Shown here: positions 5,883 to 16,849 of the stretch, piece by piece
Numbering within the stretch: the first letter of the stretch is position 1
Layout: each line of letters starts with the position of its first letter
NCBI RefSeq assembly: GCF_000385135.1
Contig: NZ_ARQM01000012.1
Location: 310,001-374,000 of the forward strand
Source: Promicromonospora sukumoe 327MFSha3.1
GTDB taxonomy: Bacteria > Actinomycetota > Actinomycetes > Actinomycetales > Cellulomonadaceae
DNA length: 64,000 bases
Direction of reading: 5' to 3'
Position numbers and translations under genes: made by a program
The notes under the pieces: model-generated
Told to the model about the DNA's origin: nothing
What the model saw: the letters and a program-made list of their open reading frames with translations, nothing else
Databases searched by the model: none

Positions 5883-7052
5883 TCAGACCGACTTCAGGAT
5901 CTCCGCCGCCCGCGCCCGCGCCCAGGCGTCCGCCTCCAGGACACCCTCGACCGAGCCCGCATCGCCCGCCCCGGCCGACGCGTGCGCCTCCACGACGGCG
6001 GCCACGGTGTCGACGATGTCGAGGAACCCGATCGTGCCGTCGTGGAACGCGTCCACGCACACCTCGTTCGCGGCGTTGTAGACCGCGGGGTGGGTGCCCC
6101 CGGCTTCTCCGACCTGGCGCGCCAGCCGCACGGCGGGGAACGCGTCGTCGTCCAGGGGCAGGAACTCCCAGCTCGCCGCCTGCGTCCAGTCGATGCCGAC
6201 GTCGACGTCGGGCAGCCGGTCCGGCCAGGACAGGCCGAGCGCGATCGGCACGAGCATCCGCGGCGGCCCGGCCTGCGCGATCGTAGAGCCGTCGACGAAC
6301 TCGACCATGGAGTGGATCATCTGCTGCGGGTGCACCACGACGTCGATGGCGCTGAACGGCAGGTCGAACAGGAGGTGCGCCTCGATCACCTCGAGCCCCT
6401 TGTTGACCAGCGTCGCCGAGTTGGTGGTGACCACGCGGCCCATCGCGAAGTTGGGGTGCCGCAGGGCCTGGGCGGGGGTCACGTCGCGCAGCTCGTCCCG
6501 CGAGCGCCCCCGGAACGGCCCGCCGCTCGCGGTCACCACGAGCTTGCGCACCTCGGACGACGCCCCCGAGCGGAGCGACTGCGCGATGGCCGAGTGCTCG
6601 GAGTCCACGGGCACGATCTGGCCCTCGCGCCGCACCGCGGCCTTGACCAGGGCGCCGCCCACCACGAGCGACTCCTTGTTCGCCAGCGCCAGGGTCGAGT
6701 CCGCGGCCAGCGCGGCCAGGGTGGGGCGCAGCCCGACCGAGCCGGTGATGCCGTTGAGCACCACGTCGCTGCCCCGGCCCGCCACCTCGGTGGCGGCGTC
6801 CGGCCCGGTGAGCACCTCGACGCCGTCCGCCCCCGCCTCGCGCAGGAGCGTGGTCAGCGCGGGGCCCGAGGCCGGGTCGGCGACCGCGACGGCGCGGACG
6901 CCGAGCGTGGCCGCCTGGCTCGCGAGCAGCGGCAGGTCCGAGCCGCCCGCGGACAGGGCGTCCACGCGGAACCGCTCGGGGTTGCGCCCGATGACGTCGA
7001 TGGCCTGCGTGCCGATGGAACCGGTGGAGCCCAGAAGGGTGACGCTTCGCAT
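5883..7052 (-). CDS. dxr: 1-deoxy-D-xylulose 5-phosphate reductoisomerase
   Basis: Dxr converts DXP to 2-C-methyl-D-erythritol 4-phosphate with NADPH and a divalent metal, the committed step of the MEP isoprenoid pathway. All 389 residues are in the usual range. The NADPH-binding GSTGSIGTQAIDVIGRNP starts at residue 9, followed by ALANKESLVVGG, the metal/substrate region PVDSEHSAIAQSL, the phosphate loop TASGGPFRGRSRDEL and HPNFAMG. In many actinobacteria dxr lies just beyond rlmN/cdsA and is followed by an M50 protease and ispG. Here it has the same strand as rlmN but is separated from it by a 13-kb accessory block, and thiamine genes lie downstream. Confidence 0.96.
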   Translation of the reverse strand: MRSVTLLGSTGSIGTQAIDVIGRNPERFRVDALSAGGSDLPLLASQAATLGVRAVAVADPASGPALTTLLREAGADGVEVLTGPDAATEVAGRGSDVVLNGITGSVGLRPTLAALAADSTLALANKESLVVGGALVKAAVRREGQIVPVDSEHSAIAQSLRSGASSEVRKLVVTASGGPFRGRSRDELRDVTPAQALRHPNFAMGRVVTTNSATLVNKGLEVIEAHLLFDLPFSAIDVVVHPQQMIHSMVEFVDGSTIAQAGPPRMLVPIALGLSWPDRLPDVDVGIDWTQAASWEFLPLDDDAFPAVRLARQVGEAGGTHPAVYNAANEVCVDAFHDGTIGFLDIVDTVAAVVEAHASAGAGDAGSVEGVLEADAWARARAAEILKSV

Positions 7053-7089: not shown

Positions 7090-8886
7090 TCAGCCCTCGC
7101 CCGACGGCTCCGACCGGCCGCGGCCGAACATCCGCCAGCCCCGCACCACGCCGCGCGGGTCGGGCACGGGGGCGTCGGCGGCCTCCCACCCGGCGTCGTC
7201 GTCGAGCGGGACCACGTGCAGGCCGAAGTCGGCCAGGATCACCGGGATGGCACGGATCGCCGCGCGGTCCTTCTCGCGGTCGGCCTCCGAGAGGTCGGCC
7301 CAGGGCCGCAGGTCCGGGTGCAGCCGGCGGGCGTCGTCGCGCTCGGGGCCGTAGGTCCAGCCCGCGGCGACCTTCTCGGCCATCCAGCGGTCGTGCTCGT
7401 CGACGGCGCGCGCGTCGACGACGGGTTCCGGGATCCGGCCGTGCTCGGCATTCCCGGCGGGCACCACGGTGCAGCCCATCTGGCGCAGGCGGTCCGGGAT
7501 CGCGCGGACCTGGGCGCGGTTGGCGGCCCGCAGGTCCTCCGACAGCTCGGACCACGAGACCATCGCGGGCGTGCTCTGCCAGGCCACGCCCTGCGCGCGC
7601 TGGTTGCGCAGGTAGGTCAGGTGCGCGGAGACGGCCATGAGGTCGTAGACGTCGTCGTGCACCAGGGCGCCGGGCGCCGTCGCCCGGCGCAGCAGCGTGC
7701 CGGGCTCCACGACGTCTAGGCGGCCCGCGAGGTCGTCGAGGATGGCGCCGTCGTGCGCGCCGAAGAGCCCGCCCAGCCCGGCGAGCCGGTTCAGCCGCAG
7801 CACGACGGCGCCCTCGCTCGCGCGCCAGAGGTCGCTGTCGCGCAGCGCCTCGCGGAGCGCGTCTCCGTCGTCGTCGTGGCACACGTAGACGCGCTGGGGC
7901 GTGCCGACCGACCGGACCTGCGCGAACGTGTCCACGGGGACCAGCCGGCACGCGGCGCGCACGGAGGGCCAGCGGGCGCGCAGCGCCGCGGCGGCCTCCC
8001 ACGCGCCCGGCCCGACCAGGGTCACGGTGAGCGGTTCGCCGCCGGATGCGATCTCGACGCTCCGCAGGCGCGCGAACGCCACGACCAGCGCCCGGCCGAA
8101 CGTCCCGTGCCCGACGACGGAGATGTGCGGCGCGGTGCCGCGCGCGACGATCCGGTCGCGCCGCACCAGGGACCGGGCCACGAGCTCGCCCAGCGTGAAG
8201 AAGTCGACACCCGGCTGGGGGTGGCTCAGGTGCCGCGCCTGGAGGGCGAGGGCGAGCTCCGGGTCGCTGACGTGGGCGTTCAGGCGCAGGCCCGGCAGGT
8301 CGGCGGCCCGGTCCGCGCGGCTGGCCACGGCGACGGTGAGCACGTTGACGCCGGGTTCGTCGTCCTCGGCCTCGCACGCGTACAGGACGGCGGCGCCCGC
8401 CACGCCGGCGTTGCGCAGCGAGGCGGCGTCGCCGGTCGCGGTGCGTACGACGACGGCGCCCCGGGCCGCGAGCGCCGCCGCGATGAGGTCGGCGGCGGGC
8501 GCGCGGCCCACGACGATCGCGTGCCCGCGCATGCGGCGGGTGCGCATGAGCACGAACTGGTCGGCGAACAGCGAGCGCACGGCCTCGAAGACGGCGTAGC
8601 CGGTGGCGACCGGGGCGAGGAACCGGGCGGCCTGGAGCTGCCAGGGCAGGTCGCCGCCCTGGTTCGTGGCCTCGGCGCCGAGCACGAAGAGCTGGACGGA
8701 GTAGTAGACGAGGTCCCAGGCGCTGGTGCCCCACTCGAAGTCGGGCGAGGTGCGGTAGAGCCAGAAGCCCCACAGGCCCAGGCCGAACGCGACGCCGAAC
8801 AGGGCGACGAAGCCGGCGCGGACCCAGGAGCGGCGCACGCGCAGCCGCCGGGGACCGTCGGGCGGGACGACCAGCTCCGGTGCCAT
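7090..8886 (-). CDS. Two-TM channel-like protein with two Rossmann folds and a C-terminal RyR domain
   Basis: A 598-residue membrane protein. Hydrophobic segments lie at about 21-43 and 86-108, with a shorter apolar stretch between them (about 57-72, WDLVYYSVQLFVLGAEATNQ), the layout of a 2TM pore module but without a TVGYG selectivity filter. Two Rossmann-like units follow: residues about 119-205 (HAIVVGRAPAADLIAAAL, TrkA-N-like) and about 253-330 (HISVVGHGTFGRALVVAF, with intact GxGxxG). The C-terminal part has a clear RyR domain, HDRWMAEKVAAGWTYGPERD then RRLHPDLRPWADLSEAD (about 493-560), preceded by a degenerate half-repeat (about 434-495). RyR-domain proteins are known in predicted nucleotide-centred conflict systems. 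It is divergent from a TIR protein across 154 bp. Domain calls are firm; channel activity and ligand are inference. Confidence 0.8.
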   Translation of the reverse strand: MAPELVVPPDGPRRLRVRRSWVRAGFVALFGVAFGLGLWGFWLYRTSPDFEWGTSAWDLVYYSVQLFVLGAEATNQGGDLPWQLQAARFLAPVATGYAVFEAVRSLFADQFVLMRTRRMRGHAIVVGRAPAADLIAAALAARGAVVVRTATGDAASLRNAGVAGAAVLYACEAEDDEPGVNVLTVAVASRADRAADLPGLRLNAHVSDPELALALQARHLSHPQPGVDFFTLGELVARSLVRRDRIVARGTAPHISVVGHGTFGRALVVAFARLRSVEIASGGEPLTVTLVGPGAWEAAAALRARWPSVRAACRLVPVDTFAQVRSVGTPQRVYVCHDDDGDALREALRDSDLWRASEGAVVLRLNRLAGLGGLFGAHDGAILDDLAGRLDVVEPGTLLRRATAPGALVHDDVYDLMAVSAHLTYLRNQRAQGVAWQSTPAMVSWSELSEDLRAANRAQVRAIPDRLRQMGCTVVPAGNAEHGRIPEPVVDARAVDEHDRWMAEKVAAGWTYGPERDDARRLHPDLRPWADLSEADREKDRAAIRAIPVILADFGLHVVPLDDDAGWEAADAPVPDPRGVVRGWRMFGRGRSEPSGEG

Positions 8887-9040
8887 CTTGGTGCCTTCCT
8901 CGTCGGGCGAACCAACCGTGCTTAACCGTGCATTTCACCACGAAGGTGACTAGCGTCATGGCCTGCGGCGACACTACACACCAGGGGATATGTTTCTCCC
9001 GGTCCGCAAACATTCGCCGAGGAAAGGCTGCGGGAGCAGG
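8887..9040. promoter_or_regulatory. Shared intergenic region of the divergent RyR and TIR genes
   Basis: This 154-bp region carries both divergent starts. It is less GC-rich than the flanking genes and holds a short direct repeat AACCGTGC-TT-AACCGTGC (about 8917-8934). The RyR gene has a GAGGAAGG Shine-Dalgarno eight bases before its ATG. No confident -35/-10 pair could be assigned. Co-regulation of the two genes is inferred from this layout only. Confidence 0.4.
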
Positions 9041-12000
9041 ATGACCGACCGGATTGTCCGCTCCCTGCTACCGACCAGCCGCGCCGGGCGGGTGGCCCGG
9101 AACAGCCGCGCGCACGCCACGCCGCCCTCCGGCGGGTACGACGCCTTCCTGTCCTACAGCCGGGACTCGGACGGCGACTTCGCGCCCGCGTTCCACGCGG
9201 AGCTCCTCGACTTCGACAAGCGCGACGACGTGCCGGACCTGAACGTCTTCCTGGACCGGACGGGTCTGGCGAACAACCCGAGCCTCTGGGACGCGATCGA
9301 GCGCAAGCTCGAACGGTCCGACTACCTGATCCTGTTCGCCTCGGAGGGCGCGGCGAGCTCGAAGTACGTGGCCAAGGAGGTCGCGTGGTGGCTCGACCAC
9401 CGCGGTCCCGAGACGCTGCTGGTCGCGCTGACCAGCGGCAAGATCGTCTGGGACCAGACGGCGAACGAGATCGACGCGATCAGCACCACGGCGCTGCCCG
9501 CGCCGCTGGTGGAGCGGATCGACCACGAGCCCAAGTGGACCGACCTGACGATGCTGCGCCAGCGCCGGTTCTGGCGGCACCACCCCGACCGGCCGGGCGT
9601 GCTCGCCGAGCTGGTGGCGCCGCTGCGCGGCCAGGACGTCAGCACCGAGGAGATCCTCAGCGCGCACATCGCCCGGCAGAGCTCGGCGGGCCTGCGCAAC
9701 CGCCTGGTGAACATGGCGCTGGCGGTCATGCTCGTCCTGTCGATCGGCGCGTTCGCGTACGCGCAGCGGGAGGCGGACCGCGCGAACGAGGCGGTGAACG
9801 CCAACGAGGCGCACCTGCTGGGCGCGACGTCGCACGTGGTGCACCAGGACGACCCCGCCACCGCGCAGCTGCTGGCGGTCGAGGCGGTGCGGCGGCTGCG
9901 GGACGGGCAGACCCGGACCGCGCTGTTCAACGCGGTCACGGCCAACGAGCCCGCGGACCCGTACCTGCTGCGCACCGTGGACGTCCCGGAGGAGACCGGG
10001 CTGGCCGACGTCGCACCGACCGCCGCCGGCGTCGTCGGCCGGACCGAGACCGGAGACCTCGTGCGCTGGAACCCCGACGACGGCGCGCCCGCCGTGCTGC
10101 GCGGCGACCGCACGCCCTTCGGCTCGGTCAGCGGGCCGGGGCGCACGGGACCCGTCGTGTCCGGCAGCGCCGACGGCGCCGTGGTCGCCGCCGTGGACGA
10201 TCTCGGCGTGACCCTGGGCCGGTTCGGGCCGCTGCCCGCCGACAGCACCAGCCGGCAGACGCACCTCGACCTGCCGGGCACGACGGCGGTCGCCGTCACG
10301 CCCGACGGCGACACCCTGGTCATCGCCTGGCACGACGCCACCAGCGACCGCAACCGGATCGGCACCATCAACCTGGCCGGCCGGGACCTCGCCGTCCTGG
10401 AGTCCGACGACGGCGCCGCGCGCCCCGCCGAGCAGCGCCTCGCGTTCCGCACCAAGGCCGAGACCGACCTCGGCGTCACATCGCTCGCCGTCGGCTCCAG
10501 CCGCACCCTCGCCGTGGCGGACGCCGACGCCGGGACCCTGGAGATCCGCAGCCTCGACACGCTGGAGCCGACCGGCGGCGGCCCCGTGGACCTGCCCGAC
10601 GGCGGCGTGCCCTCCCCGTCCCTGCGCGACTGGGCGACGCTGGCCTCCGACGGCGACACCACGACCGTGACCCTGCACCACTGGGCCGACGGCACCGCGC
10701 GCACCGCGGACTGCCCCGTGCCGCGCGCCTGGTCGGACCCCGAGGTGGTCGCGGTCGACGACGCCACGACCCGCGCCCTGGTCGCCACCGACAGCGGGCT
10801 GGTCGCGTGCGAGATCGGCGCCGACACCGACGTGCACCGCACCTGGCACCTGTCCGGCATCCGGGGGCCGGGGTCGCCCGTCCTGGTCGGGGTGGACCGG
10901 GTCGCGGCGGCGTCGGACGGCCGCATCGCGCTGTGGAGCACCGCCGGGACCGACGGGGACGTGCCCCTGCCGAGCGGGGCGGGCGCGGCGGCGACCGGTT
11001 CGGATCCCGGGCAGGGCGAGGACCCGGGCGCGGATCCCGGCGAGGACTCGGAGGTCGGCGGGCCGGCCCAGGCCGGCCCCACGGCCGTCCTGGCCACCTA
11101 CCGCGCCGAGCCCACGGGGCCGGCCAGCACGGCGGCGTCCTGGTCGGACGGCACCGTGCTGATCCACGGCCTCGGCACGGTGGACCTCCCGGCCGACAGC
11201 CCCGACGCCGGCCGGCCCCTGCTGCCGGTCTGGCTCGACGAGGACCGGCTCCTGCTGGTCACCCCCGACGGCGAGGCCTACCGGACCCAGGGCGGCACGA
11301 CCGCCGGCTACGAGGCCGGGTTCCGCGACCTCGTGGCACCGGGCCTGGACGGCGGCGACCCGGGCTGCGCCACGATCGTGAGCGCCCAGCGCACCCGCGA
11401 CGACCTGGTTCTGGTGGACACCTGCTCCGGGCTGCACGTGCTCGACGTCGGGCTGCAGGAGCGGGCGCTGTACGTGCCCGGCCCGCTCGGTACGACGCCG
11501 CGGCTCGGCTCGGCGTGGGCGGAGCCCGGGCGGGTGGCGGTCGCCGACGACGGCAGCCAGGTCGCCGTCGCACCCCGGGACTTCTCGCTGCGGGTCGCCG
11601 ACCTGACCGCGGCCGCCGCGGGCGCGCGGGACGTCTGGACCGTGCGGGGCAGCAGCGTGGACCAGGTGCACCTGATCGGCGCGCGGACCGGTGCGGACAT
11701 GACGCTGCCCGAGCGGCTCGTCACGCTCGGCCTCGACGCGAAGGTGCGGCTGCGCGCCGTCGCCGGGCCGGGCGACCCCGAGGACCTCGACCTGACCGGC
11801 ACCTACGGCGACGTGCTCGCGGTGCTGCCCGGGCCCGACCTCGTGGCCCGCAACCAGGGCGCCGCGCTGGCGTTCTTCGACATCGCGACCGGCCAGAAGG
11901 TCGGCGCGCTCGCGACCCGGCTCTACTCGCCCGGCGGCAAGGTCGCGCCCGGCGACGTGTACGCCGGCGACGGCCAGCTCCTCGTGGTCCAGGACCACGG

Positions 12001-12139
12001 CGTCACCACGGGCTGGACCTTCTCGGACGACCAGATGATCGCGCGGGCCTGCGCCATGGCGGGGCGGGAGCCGACCGCGGCGGACATGCCGGACGGCGTC
12101 TCCCTCACGGACACCCCCACCTGCCCGGAGAACCGCTGA
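9041..12139 (+). CDS. TIR domain-transmembrane-beta-propeller protein
   Basis: The TIR domain (about residues 32-165) starts GGYDAFLSYSRDSDGDF, continues VFLDRTGLANNPSLWDAIER and contains SSKYVAKEVAWWLDH, whose Glu (about E113) occupies the catalytic position of NAD-cleaving TIRs. A single TM helix follows (about 221-241, ALAVMLVLSIGAFAYAQ), then a charged helical linker of the type joining membrane anchors to WD40-like domains in bacterial STAND proteins (DPATAQLLAVEAVRRLRDGQ). Roughly 700 residues of blade-like beta repeats come next, interrupted by a Gly/Asp-rich linker near 10990-11070. I chose the ATG at 9041 because GGGAG lies just upstream; an in-frame ATG at 8990 would add 17 residues. 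The protein is 1032 residues. Bacterial TIR proteins act in anti-phage signalling or NAD depletion. The partner may be the divergent RyR protein. Confidence 0.82.
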   Translation: MTDRIVRSLLPTSRAGRVARNSRAHATPPSGGYDAFLSYSRDSDGDFAPAFHAELLDFDKRDDVPDLNVFLDRTGLANNPSLWDAIERKLERSDYLILFASEGAASSKYVAKEVAWWLDHRGPETLLVALTSGKIVWDQTANEIDAISTTALPAPLVERIDHEPKWTDLTMLRQRRFWRHHPDRPGVLAELVAPLRGQDVSTEEILSAHIARQSSAGLRNRLVNMALAVMLVLSIGAFAYAQREADRANEAVNANEAHLLGATSHVVHQDDPATAQLLAVEAVRRLRDGQTRTALFNAVTANEPADPYLLRTVDVPEETGLADVAPTAAGVVGRTETGDLVRWNPDDGAPAVLRGDRTPFGSVSGPGRTGPVVSGSADGAVVAAVDDLGVTLGRFGPLPADSTSRQTHLDLPGTTAVAVTPDGDTLVIAWHDATSDRNRIGTINLAGRDLAVLESDDGAARPAEQRLAFRTKAETDLGVTSLAVGSSRTLAVADADAGTLEIRSLDTLEPTGGGPVDLPDGGVPSPSLRDWATLASDGDTTTVTLHHWADGTARTADCPVPRAWSDPEVVAVDDATTRALVATDSGLVACEIGADTDVHRTWHLSGIRGPGSPVLVGVDRVAAASDGRIALWSTAGTDGDVPLPSGAGAAATGSDPGQGEDPGADPGEDSEVGGPAQAGPTAVLATYRAEPTGPASTAASWSDGTVLIHGLGTVDLPADSPDAGRPLLPVWLDEDRLLLVTPDGEAYRTQGGTTAGYEAGFRDLVAPGLDGGDPGCATIVSAQRTRDDLVLVDTCSGLHVLDVGLQERALYVPGPLGTTPRLGSAWAEPGRVAVADDGSQVAVAPRDFSLRVADLTAAAAGARDVWTVRGSSVDQVHLIGARTGADMTLPERLVTLGLDAKVRLRAVAGPGDPEDLDLTGTYGDVLAVLPGPDLVARNQGAALAFFDIATGQKVGALATRLYSPGGKVAPGDVYAGDGQLLVVQDHGVTTGWTFSDDQMIARACAMAGREPTAADMPDGVSLTDTPTCPENR

Positions 12140-12191: not shown

Positions 12192-12896
12192 TCAGGACTC
12201 GAGGCGCTTGGCCTCGGTCTCGGCCTCGTCGGCCTCCGCGTCGCGGCCCTCCTTGCGCAGCGCGCTGGTCAGCGAGCGCATCGAGGCGGCGGCGTCGGAC
12301 TTGGCGAGGTCGGACGACGTCCCGCGCAGCTTGCTCCACAGGCCCATCGCCTCCTCGGCGACCTCGAGCACCTGCGAGCGCTCCTTGCCCCCGATGGTCG
12401 ACGTCGTGAACGTCTCCAGCGCGTGCTCCAGGGCGTTGCGCTGCTTGGCCGGGTCGTCGTCGTCCAGGCTCTTGAAGAGTCCGACGGCCTCGCCGACGAG
12501 CGCCGACGTCGACTTCTCCTGGTCCTTGGCCGCCGCCTGGCTGCCGAACGACAGCAGCGCCACGGCCAGCTTCGACACGGTGCTGCCGGCCTCGCCGGGC
12601 AGCTTCTCCGCGCCCGACGCGACCAGCTGGTGCAGCCGGGCCGCGGTCCGCGTCTCGATGTTGTCCGCGCGCTCCGGGTCCTCGTCCTGCTCCGGCGTCG
12701 CGGCCGGTGCCGGCGTCGCGGCCGGGGCCACGGCCCCCTCCGGCCCGGCGACCGGGGCCGGGCTCGCGGCCGGCTCCGGGTTCGTGTCGCCCTGGGCGAC
12801 GTCCGGCGTCGCCTCCGGCGCCAGCTGCGGCGTCGGCTCCCCTGCGGCGGTGGCCTGCGCCGCCTGTGCCTGCTCCGGCAGTGCGTCCGTGCTCAC
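12192..12896 (-). CDS. Uncharacterised Ala/Pro-rich acidic protein
   Basis: A 234-residue protein I cannot assign to a family. Residues about 1-85 are a disordered, Ala/Pro/Glu-rich tract with repeated PAP/ATP units. Residues about 90-234 form a predominantly helical, charged region (ARLHQLVASGAEKLPGEAG, LVGEAVGLFKSLDDDDPAKQ, LEVAEEAMGLWSKLRG, SLTSALRKEGRDAEADEAE). There is no signal peptide or TM segment, so it is probably cytoplasmic. The start has GGAGGAAAAA just upstream, a strong Shine-Dalgarno. It converges on the TIR gene and is divergent from the SNF2 ATPase. The coding signal is good, the function unknown. Confidence 0.75.
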   Translation of the reverse strand: MSTDALPEQAQAAQATAAGEPTPQLAPEATPDVAQGDTNPEPAASPAPVAGPEGAVAPAATPAPAATPEQDEDPERADNIETRTAARLHQLVASGAEKLPGEAGSTVSKLAVALLSFGSQAAAKDQEKSTSALVGEAVGLFKSLDDDDPAKQRNALEHALETFTTSTIGGKERSQVLEVAEEAMGLWSKLRGTSSDLAKSDAAASMRSLTSALRKEGRDAEADEAETEAKRLES

Positions 12897-16501: not shown

Positions 16502-16578
16502 AGGTGCGCTTCTACCCAGTCATTCGGCCCGCAACCGACGTGGTTCCGGGCCGAATGACTGGGTAGAGGCGCACTCTC
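16501..16578. terminator. Long palindrome between convergent genes (copy 2 of a shared repeat)
   Basis: Arms of about 31 nt (16501-16531 and 16547-16578) pair almost perfectly. The core GTGCGCTTCTACCCAGTCAT is the same sequence as the palindrome at 1265-1339, including the inner bases. It begins in the DUF418 stop codon and ends in the stop codon of the convergent repeat protein, so it exactly fills the gap. Confidence 0.65.
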
Positions 16579-16849
16579 AGGCCGGGAACGAGTCCACGGC
16601 GTCGTCCACGCCGTCGCCGTCGGCGTCCACGGAGATGGTCCGCGTGCCGCCGGCGGTCTCCACGACGACGTCGGGCACGCCGTCCCCGTCGGTGTCGTAC
16701 AGCTCGACGTCGGGCACGCCGTCGCCGTCGTAGTCCTCGAACTGGGCGTCCACGACGCCGTCGCCGTCGGTGTCTGCGACCTCGACGTCCGTGACGCCGT
16801 CGCCGTCGAGGTCGAACTTGCCGGGCTTGTCGGCCAGGAACTCGGACAC
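16577..16849 (-). CDS. Small DxDGDG-repeat (thrombospondin type 3-like) acidic protein
   Basis: A 90-residue protein made almost entirely of five calcium-loop-like repeats: DLDGDGVTD, DTDGDGVVD, DYDGDGVPD, DTDGDGVPD and DADGDGVDD, spaced by short beta-prone segments. Such Asp-rich loops bind Ca2+ in thrombospondin type 3 and dockerin/EF-hand-like domains. There is no signal peptide: the N-terminus is MSEFLADKPGKF and the start has AAGGAGAAG six bases upstream. As read it is therefore cytoplasmic, or it leaves by a non-classical route. No enzyme domain is attached. Role unknown; calcium or other cation binding is inference. Confidence 0.75.
   Translation of the reverse strand: MSEFLADKPGKFDLDGDGVTDVEVADTDGDGVVDAQFEDYDGDGVPDVELYDTDGDGVPDVVVETAGGTRTISVDADGDGVDDAVDSFPA

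Follow-up and report, generated by a model that had tools for sequence, protein, structure and literature searches.

In the Thoeris system, a signal derived from nicotinamide adenine dinucleotide (NAD) activates an effector (PMC11204291 and PMC13232231, in the parts available to us). The available part of PMC13232231 also describes RyDEP, a phage protein with a RyR domain that binds and cleaves the TIR products 2'/3' cyclic ADP-ribose (2'/3'cADPR) and is a glycosidase; binding of the signals was seen for six out of the eight RyDEP homologues tested, and cleavage for RyDEP alone. DUF4062 proteins (Swarozyc) are TIR-like NADases reported to act by NAD+ depletion, and RyR goes unmentioned in the available text of that source (PMC13174449). 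In the literature searched, there was no account of a bacterial TIR gene paired with a RyR channel, and the terms 'RyR domain' and 'TIR domain' together led to PMC13232231. Here we describe two divergent genes of Promicromonospora sukumoe 327MFSha3.1, P0001 and P0002, encoding a TIR protein with a transmembrane (TM) helix and a RyR protein with two TM helices (2TM) and RCK-like Rossmann folds. The two proteins very probably work together, and we refer to their genes as the cassette. They lie in a stretch of 64,000 nucleotides (contig NZ_ARQM01000012.1, positions 310,001 to 374,000), hereafter the window, and feature coordinates are those of the window:

7090-8886, minus strand: P0002, 2TM-RCK-RCK-RyR gene, 598 amino acids, proposed receptor and effector half
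8551-8832, minus strand: TM1, pore-helix-like segment and TM2 of P0002, residues 19-112, with LFVLGAEA at the place of the K+ channel TVGYGD
8152-8529, minus strand: first Rossmann/RCK (TrkA_N-like) domain, residues 120-245; TrkA_N in homologues, profile matches to TrkA and MthK
7687-8133, minus strand: second Rossmann/RCK-like domain, residues 252-400, the better part of the AlphaFold model
7465-7638, minus strand: RyR repeat 1 (degenerate), residues 417-474
7201-7425, minus strand: RyR repeat 2, residues 488-562, with H498, W501, H523 and D540
8887-9040, no strand: divergent intergenic region between P0002 and P0001, 154 bp
9041-12139, plus strand: P0001, TIR-TM-propeller gene, 1032 amino acids, proposed sensor and signal-making half
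9128-9640, plus strand: TIR domain of P0001, residues 30-200; Pfam TIR_2 below cut-off, family-profile PDB matches
9704-9763, plus strand: single TM helix, residues ~222-241, by hydropathy
9941-12136, plus strand: proposed C-terminal sensor region resembling a beta-propeller (residues 301-1032), probably outside the membrane

The likeness to Thoeris (the TIR protein ThsB plus ThsA) lies in a TIR gene with a catalytic-type glutamate (E113 of P0001) that stands beside a receiver gene, here 154 bp apart, and is inherited with it as a unit. The differences are that the receiver P0002 has a RyR rather than a SLOG or Macro domain, with a 2TM/RCK body taking the place of SIR2, and that P0001 joins its TIR domain to a TM helix and a propeller. 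ThsA-type receivers are of the SIR2-SLOG or the TM-Macro form; no ThsA-type receiver domain was found in P0002, where Pfam detects RyR alone. The best Thoeris protein model (ThcB4, NCBIfam) reached 11.3 bits, with its cut-off at 220, and PADLOC returned none. Overall, no named defence model in NCBIfam or PADLOC fits either protein: P0001 has three NCBIfam matches, all far under cut-off, and one weak PADLOC match (E-value 0.034), and P0002 has zero matches in both. By analogy, the cassette is Thoeris logic with a new receiver, the novelty being provisional.

Like RyDEP and the phage RyR sponges (PMC13232231, available part), P0002 belongs to PF02026 and has the complete set of four ligand residues, but it is a host protein with membrane and RCK domains, encoded beside a TIR gene, and is predicted to respond to the signal rather than to remove it. 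It resembles MthK in its 2TM part followed by RCK, with a colinear profile, and differs from it by the lack of a TVGYG filter and by the C-terminal RyR sensor. Like animal RyR, it is a membrane protein in which RyR (R12) repeats occur in tandem, and the family profile matches RyR2 at 3.7e-39, the match falling into four stretches of which the fourth is weak; however, no SPRY domain or RyR-type pore was found in P0002, which has ~600 residues as compared to ~5000. As for DUF4062, such a gene lies next to RyR in Arcobacter, and DUF4062-like genes probably do so in three actinobacterial genomes.

Domains and conserved residues of the two proteins

The RyR domain of P0002 scores well above its cut-off (Pfam PF02026, E-value 4.4e-15, 56.1 bits against 27.4) and forms a tandem repeat (aligned at residues 417-474 and 494-558), as in animal RyR, a feature that adds to an earlier sequence-only reading of the locus. 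We compared the ligand pocket by aligning DyoEdafos gp78 with bacterial RyR proteins and reading the four ligand letters at their given positions. H498, W501, H523 and D540 of P0002 align with H75, W78, H100 and D117 of phage RyDEP, and the histidine and tryptophan of the HxxW motif of repeat 2 are both kept in 66 out of 72 rows. Since the four ligand residues are kept, RyR, more than the Rossmann folds, is likely to be the signal sensor.

The Rossmann folds are recognized through relatives. TrkA_N is present in three P0002 homologues (L061, L063 and L066; Pfam, E-values 2.6e-15 to 7.5e-20), and the family profile, corresponding to approximately the first 240 residues, aligns with residues 22-203 of MthK (E-value 1.7e-6) and also with the RCK domains of TrkA and KefC. 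The order of an RCK/TrkA_N domain after two TM helices is therefore seen in the family profile and homologues; in P0002 itself, RyR is the sole Pfam family found and TrkA_N is not detected. The only better part of the AlphaFold model of P0002 comprises residues 251-360, with block means of the predicted local distance difference test (pLDDT) of 53-84. An acidic residue occurs at or just after the filter position in 11 of 12 aligned sequences, from which we would guess a cation pore.

In P0001, Pfam TIR_2 matches with an E-value of 1.3e-5 and 26.1 bits, slightly under the 28-bit cut-off. A PDB search with the TIR sequence alone gave 0 matches, and the family profile A4 matches solved TIR domains including TcpB, Roq1 and SARM1. 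The catalytic-type glutamate, E113 (9377-9379), does not vary between the window and six congeners, and the position holds a glutamate in all ten rows of a wider TIR alignment. After the TM helix, the nine TIR-TM partners scanned carry WD40, PKD/PD40, BamB-like PQQ, Septum_form (below cut-off) or PknH_C; the last, the sensor of one TIR partner, is an extracellular-type domain. Together with the arginines N-terminal to the TM helix of P0001, this relative suggests a cytoplasmic TIR domain and a propeller outside. Because Pfam finds no propeller family in P0001, the name 'propeller' derives from the beta-rich C-terminus in a low-confidence AlphaFold2 model and from relatives, among them the own-genome paralogue L053, with WD40 matches in Pfam. 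This paralogue (L053 8646-11498; G000:C10 ~1434600-1437500) is a second TIR-TM-WD40 protein, of 950 amino acids, whose gene stands next to a P-type-ATPase-like gene; the nearest RyR gene in the genome is ~153 kb off.

Both open reading frames are uninterrupted, and a codon-use gene caller chooses both with the same starts; an alternative upstream start of P0001 is possible at 8990. Omega against two congeners is 0.10-0.12 for P0002, 0.19-0.20 for the TIR-TM part, 0.24-0.26 for the propeller and 0.09-0.13 for the neighbouring dxr. Both genes are therefore kept functional by purifying selection, P0002 to a degree like dxr, and the presumed sensor, the propeller, is the fastest-changing part of the pair.

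What the sequence-only reading observed in the two proteins is confirmed, and its interpretation is partly supported. The divergent pair with its 154-bp gap agrees with the frames and the gene caller, the glutamate in the NADase catalytic position is E113, and the architecture of 2TM, two Rossmann folds and RyR is confirmed, the first fold via homologues and profiles. In the predicted TIR-TM-propeller protein, the TIR domain and the helix hold, and the propeller comes from the model and relatives. Signal sensing had been assigned to the Rossmann and RyR parts together; the four ligand residues favour the RyR part, and the Rossmann folds now appear less likely to sense.

Linkage of the TIR and RyR genes

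We searched 13 Promicromonospora genomes with each protein, considering as P0002 orthologues the matches of 85% identity or more. Orthologues of P0001 and P0002 occur in the same 10 genomes, side by side by coordinates (in G600 runs of N cut both genes, and in G605 the P0001 match has one in-frame TGA). Both are missing from the same three genomes, G587, G599 and G607, where only a 48% paralogue of P0002 is kept. Two flanking genes define the site:

5883-7052, minus strand: dxr, left flank of the cassette
12192-12896, minus strand: right flank gene, 234 amino acids, adjoining dxr directly in the pair-less G587

The pair sits between dxr and the right-hand gene in G604 and five named congeners (L010 is probably G604). 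In G587, the sole pair-less site read among the three, dxr directly adjoins the right-hand gene, as it also does in G584, from another genus. With the best four to six candidates scored per genome, neither P0001 nor P0002 had a match in the 14 other family members among the 198 genomes of the order sample.

The P0002 paralogue with 48% identity is present in all 13 genus genomes (as fragments in G600, with one in-frame TGA in G603). In the genome of the window (L052 8630-10324; G000:C10 ~1279600-1281300) it follows a pyk-like gene and has the same four pocket residues. In another genus (G594, L198 6001-8661), a STAND-NTPase-like gene (886 amino acids, by eye) adjoins dxr on the cassette side; the dxr site may be a repeated insertion point.

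To look beyond the genus, we used P0002 to collect RyR genes from genomes of the order (198) and of the phylum (396), which gave 28 genes in 24 genomes, and we searched these 24 genomes for TIR_2 (38 places in 18 genomes, two under the family cut-off). TIR_2 lies within 10 kb of 13 of the 28 RyR genes (12 of 27 without the index pair) as compared to 0.285 expected from each genome's own TIR number, an expectation that ignores defence-gene clustering and relatedness, some genomes sharing a genus. In 200,000 simulations, there were never more than 5 TIR-near RyR genes. Adjacent TIR and RyR genes on the same strand are found in G565, G290, G343 and G397. A further pair, in G336, is probable only, because the start of its TIR-TM-WD40 protein and the RyR-side WD40 end lie on different contigs. 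A direct search for the RyR family in the phylum sample was positive in 20 of 396 genomes and added G269, where the RyR gene adjoins a TIR-nSTAND gene. The P0001-type TIR-TM protein was detected in five of the 396 genomes, four of them with RyR, including the index (hypergeometric P-value 2.3e-5, with two candidates per genome scored).

Five plasmid records match the RyR query L061, and four were viewed (one of the two from Sinorhizobium). The Arcobacter plasmid carries the arrangement in split form, with separate TrkA_N, RyR and DUF4062 genes in a row (L274 9018-12741), near restriction and SLATT genes. On the Priestia plasmid, the RyR gene is 1.35 kb from a TIR gene, surrounded by Pycsar-effector, cyclase and SIR2 genes. 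The part of the Methylobacterium plasmid shown, which ends at the record start, has SIR2 but no annotated TIR, and the Sinorhizobium plasmid has no annotated TIR and a RyR match below cut-off.

On the best tree of 73 RyR domains, which has many weak forks (15 of 70 inner branches open), the TIR-neighbour label needs nine changes (10 when the DUF4062-like loci and G336 are included), which suggests that the TIR-RyR partnership formed or broke up several times.

Proposed mechanism and competing explanations

The observed gene structures, domains, conserved residues, inheritance as a unit and recurring TIR-RyR neighbourhoods are best accounted for by a two-component signalling cassette in which a cADPR-type signal from TIR reaches a RyR-gated pore, a mechanism that we consider about evenly poised between right and wrong. 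From these data we infer a membrane topology, a chemical signal, the gating of an ion flux by that signal and an anti-phage function, as follows. The C-terminal propeller, probably outside the membrane, would sense a trigger and activate the cytoplasmic TIR domain, which would turn NAD+ into an ADP-ribose-type signal (a cyclic ADP-ribose isomer or a close product). The tandem RyR of P0002 would bind this signal in the pocket known from RyDEP and animal RyR R12, and the RCK-like Rossmann domains would relay the binding, so that a tetrameric 2TM pore without K+ filter opens or closes. The altered ion flux would probably lead to arrest or death of the cell.

Several observations weigh against this mechanism. 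The cassette is surrounded by a housekeeping cluster (dxr ... rlmN-cdsA-frr-pyrH-tsf-rpsB, gene names by eye), which led us to drop the label 'mobile defence island' for the window; an anti-phage role of the cassette is plausible, and its location urges caution. The AlphaFold2 models of both proteins (7 sequences each) are unusable, with mean pLDDT of 40.5 for P0002 and 35.5 for P0001. The TVGYG selectivity filter is absent in all 12 aligned sequences, and the TM part of P0002 searched alone against the PDB gave one irrelevant match (E-value 4.8) and no solved channel. The MthK match is thus carried by the RCK part and is no proof of a pore. Among 19 TIR-linked rows, only four have the full HWHD set of pocket residues, the two positions outside HxxW being variable, and the ligands may therefore differ. 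Conversely, the set occurs in 27 of 35 rows of the TIR-less family f106, and the pocket is therefore no proof of a TIR-made ligand. A P0001-like TIR occurs in six plasmid records, and the three viewed have no annotated RyR (one is unannotated). When only the well-supported branches of the RyR tree are considered (group table, 18 rows left out), a single label change is forced, which is compatible with a single origin.

RyR channels that have no TIR nearby also weigh against the mechanism. No TIR was found around the P0002 paralogue in either region scanned, that of the own genome and that of G607, and this channel type can therefore exist without a linked TIR. In a second survey, RyR was searched in 335 class genomes, of which 47 were positive (44 above cut-off), and 45 regions holding 46 new matches were scanned, 12 of them shorter than 19 kb. 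The TIR profile used was built from the first set and recovers TIR in 14 of 28 first-set regions. As a raw count, TIR lay within 10 kb of RyR in only 5 of the 45 regions; three of these five belong to a genus already met in the first survey. The split is 0 of 36 in family f106 versus 5 of 9 elsewhere, so RyR channels without linked TIR are common; in f106, at least four of six proteins read are of the 2TM-RCK-RyR type by eye. The co-occurrence called for by the sequence-only reading is clear in the first survey and is weakened by the second sample, which overall did not repeat it. Its proposal that the two genes are linked, drawn from adjacency and domain logic, has been strengthened by their joint presence and absence within the genus and by RyR loci with a neighbouring TIR gene in further families and, on a plasmid, in a different phylum.

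The housekeeping position, stable within the genus, also speaks for a role outside defence, in which the propeller would read a cell-wall or extracellular cue, the RyR/RCK channel would tune ion balance to NAD/ADP-ribose status, and TIR would make a messenger of normal physiology. Purifying selection would fit such a sensor equally well, as would the RyR-channel genes without TIR alongside, namely the genus-wide paralogue and family f106. We nevertheless regard it as rather unlikely, given that the cassette is missing from three of 13 genus genomes and, among the best four to six candidates per genome, from 14 other family members, and that some relatives lie near patatin, STAND, SLATT, restriction or Pycsar-type genes.

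The pocket residues allow another interpretation, in which the TIR domain harms infected cells by using up NAD+ and P0002 is its off-switch, the RyR domain binding or hydrolysing the TIR product to guard against a leaky TIR. The catalytic pair of the glycosidase RyDEP, H75 and D117 (PMC13232231, available part), has equivalents in H498 and D540, and a TIR with its antidote would likewise be inherited as a unit. However, homologues other than RyDEP in the same source did not cleave the signals, so these residues do not imply catalysis. A sponge would need neither a pore-like TM pair nor two RCK-like domains, and relatives combine RyR with further parts that look like effectors, namely 4TM proteins, RelA_SpoT-SLOG or a kinase with a weak match. 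All this makes an off-switch improbable. Least of all do we believe in chance or loose neighbours from conflict repertoires that cluster without joint work: TIR-free RyR loci are common and the first-survey simulation leaves the general clustering of defence genes uncorrected, but the shared presence in the same 10 of 13 genomes, the two-gene empty site in G587 and the adjacent same-strand pairs in G565, G290, G343 and G397 make this very improbable.

Returning to the RyR-gated pore, a TIR receptor with an outward propeller whose cADPR signal directly gates a small channel via RyR would parallel cADPR-RyR calcium signalling in a compact prokaryotic form. It would represent a new class of TIR effectors, with RyR as a modular receptor common to channels, kinase-like and RelA/SpoT-like proteins. 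We put this wider claim forward tentatively, at somewhat less than an even chance. If true, RyR domains would serve the host as receptors of TIR signals, and phage RyR sponges and hydrolases would be explained as imitations of the host receiver. A gated-pore effector would join TIR immunity, and a 600-residue system would be at hand for the old question of whether cADPR acts directly on RyR domains. The survey itself yields a list of RyR loci (channels, kinase-like, RelA/SpoT-SLOG and unassigned), some with a TIR or TIR-like NADase alongside.

Other RyR architectures and neighbouring genes

RyR is joined to various protein parts in the surveyed genomes. G211, G336 and G565 have it with 2TM-TrkA_N, G290 and relatives have it in 4TM proteins (judged by hydropathy), and G516 has it with a weakly matching kinase; in G030 its partner is RelA_SpoT-SLOG and in G266 a part that Pfam does not match. 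Among the 10 RyR proteins scanned, L056 alone has no Pfam match at all. In three f28 genomes, a DUF4062-like NACHT-WD40 gene lies directly upstream of the RyR gene, and DUF4062 matches one such N-terminus with an E-value of 2.7e-4 and 21.5 bits against a cut-off of 24.7 (Pfam). The RyR partner of the DUF4062-like gene (L068, L072 4216-10214 and L075) has 581 amino acids and an HD-like look by eye.

In three loci (L054 10220-12700, L067 9478-11922 and L069 4029-5882), RyR stands behind RelA_SpoT, TPR and a prokaryotic TRPM-type SLOG; this order comes from Pfam in L054 only and was read by eye in L067 and L069, the latter ending at the contig end. The fusion is possibly a nucleotide-controlled alarmone enzyme.

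Patatin-like phospholipase genes are located between or near TIR-nSTAND-WD40-type and 4TM-RyR genes (L081 6626-7660, by Pfam; L076 6217-7359, by eye). Near a TIR/RyR pair lies a gene (L079 14115-15932) that Pfam assigns to no family and in which a SIR2-like TGAG motif was seen by eye. Two actinobacterial loci, L241 and L242, contain genes that resemble phage RyDEP by eye and are possibly prophage-borne. Elsewhere in the window (16577-16849, minus strand), a protein of 90 amino acids consists of DxDGDG-type repeats with a calcium-binding look and is ~88-89% identical among the congeners compared.

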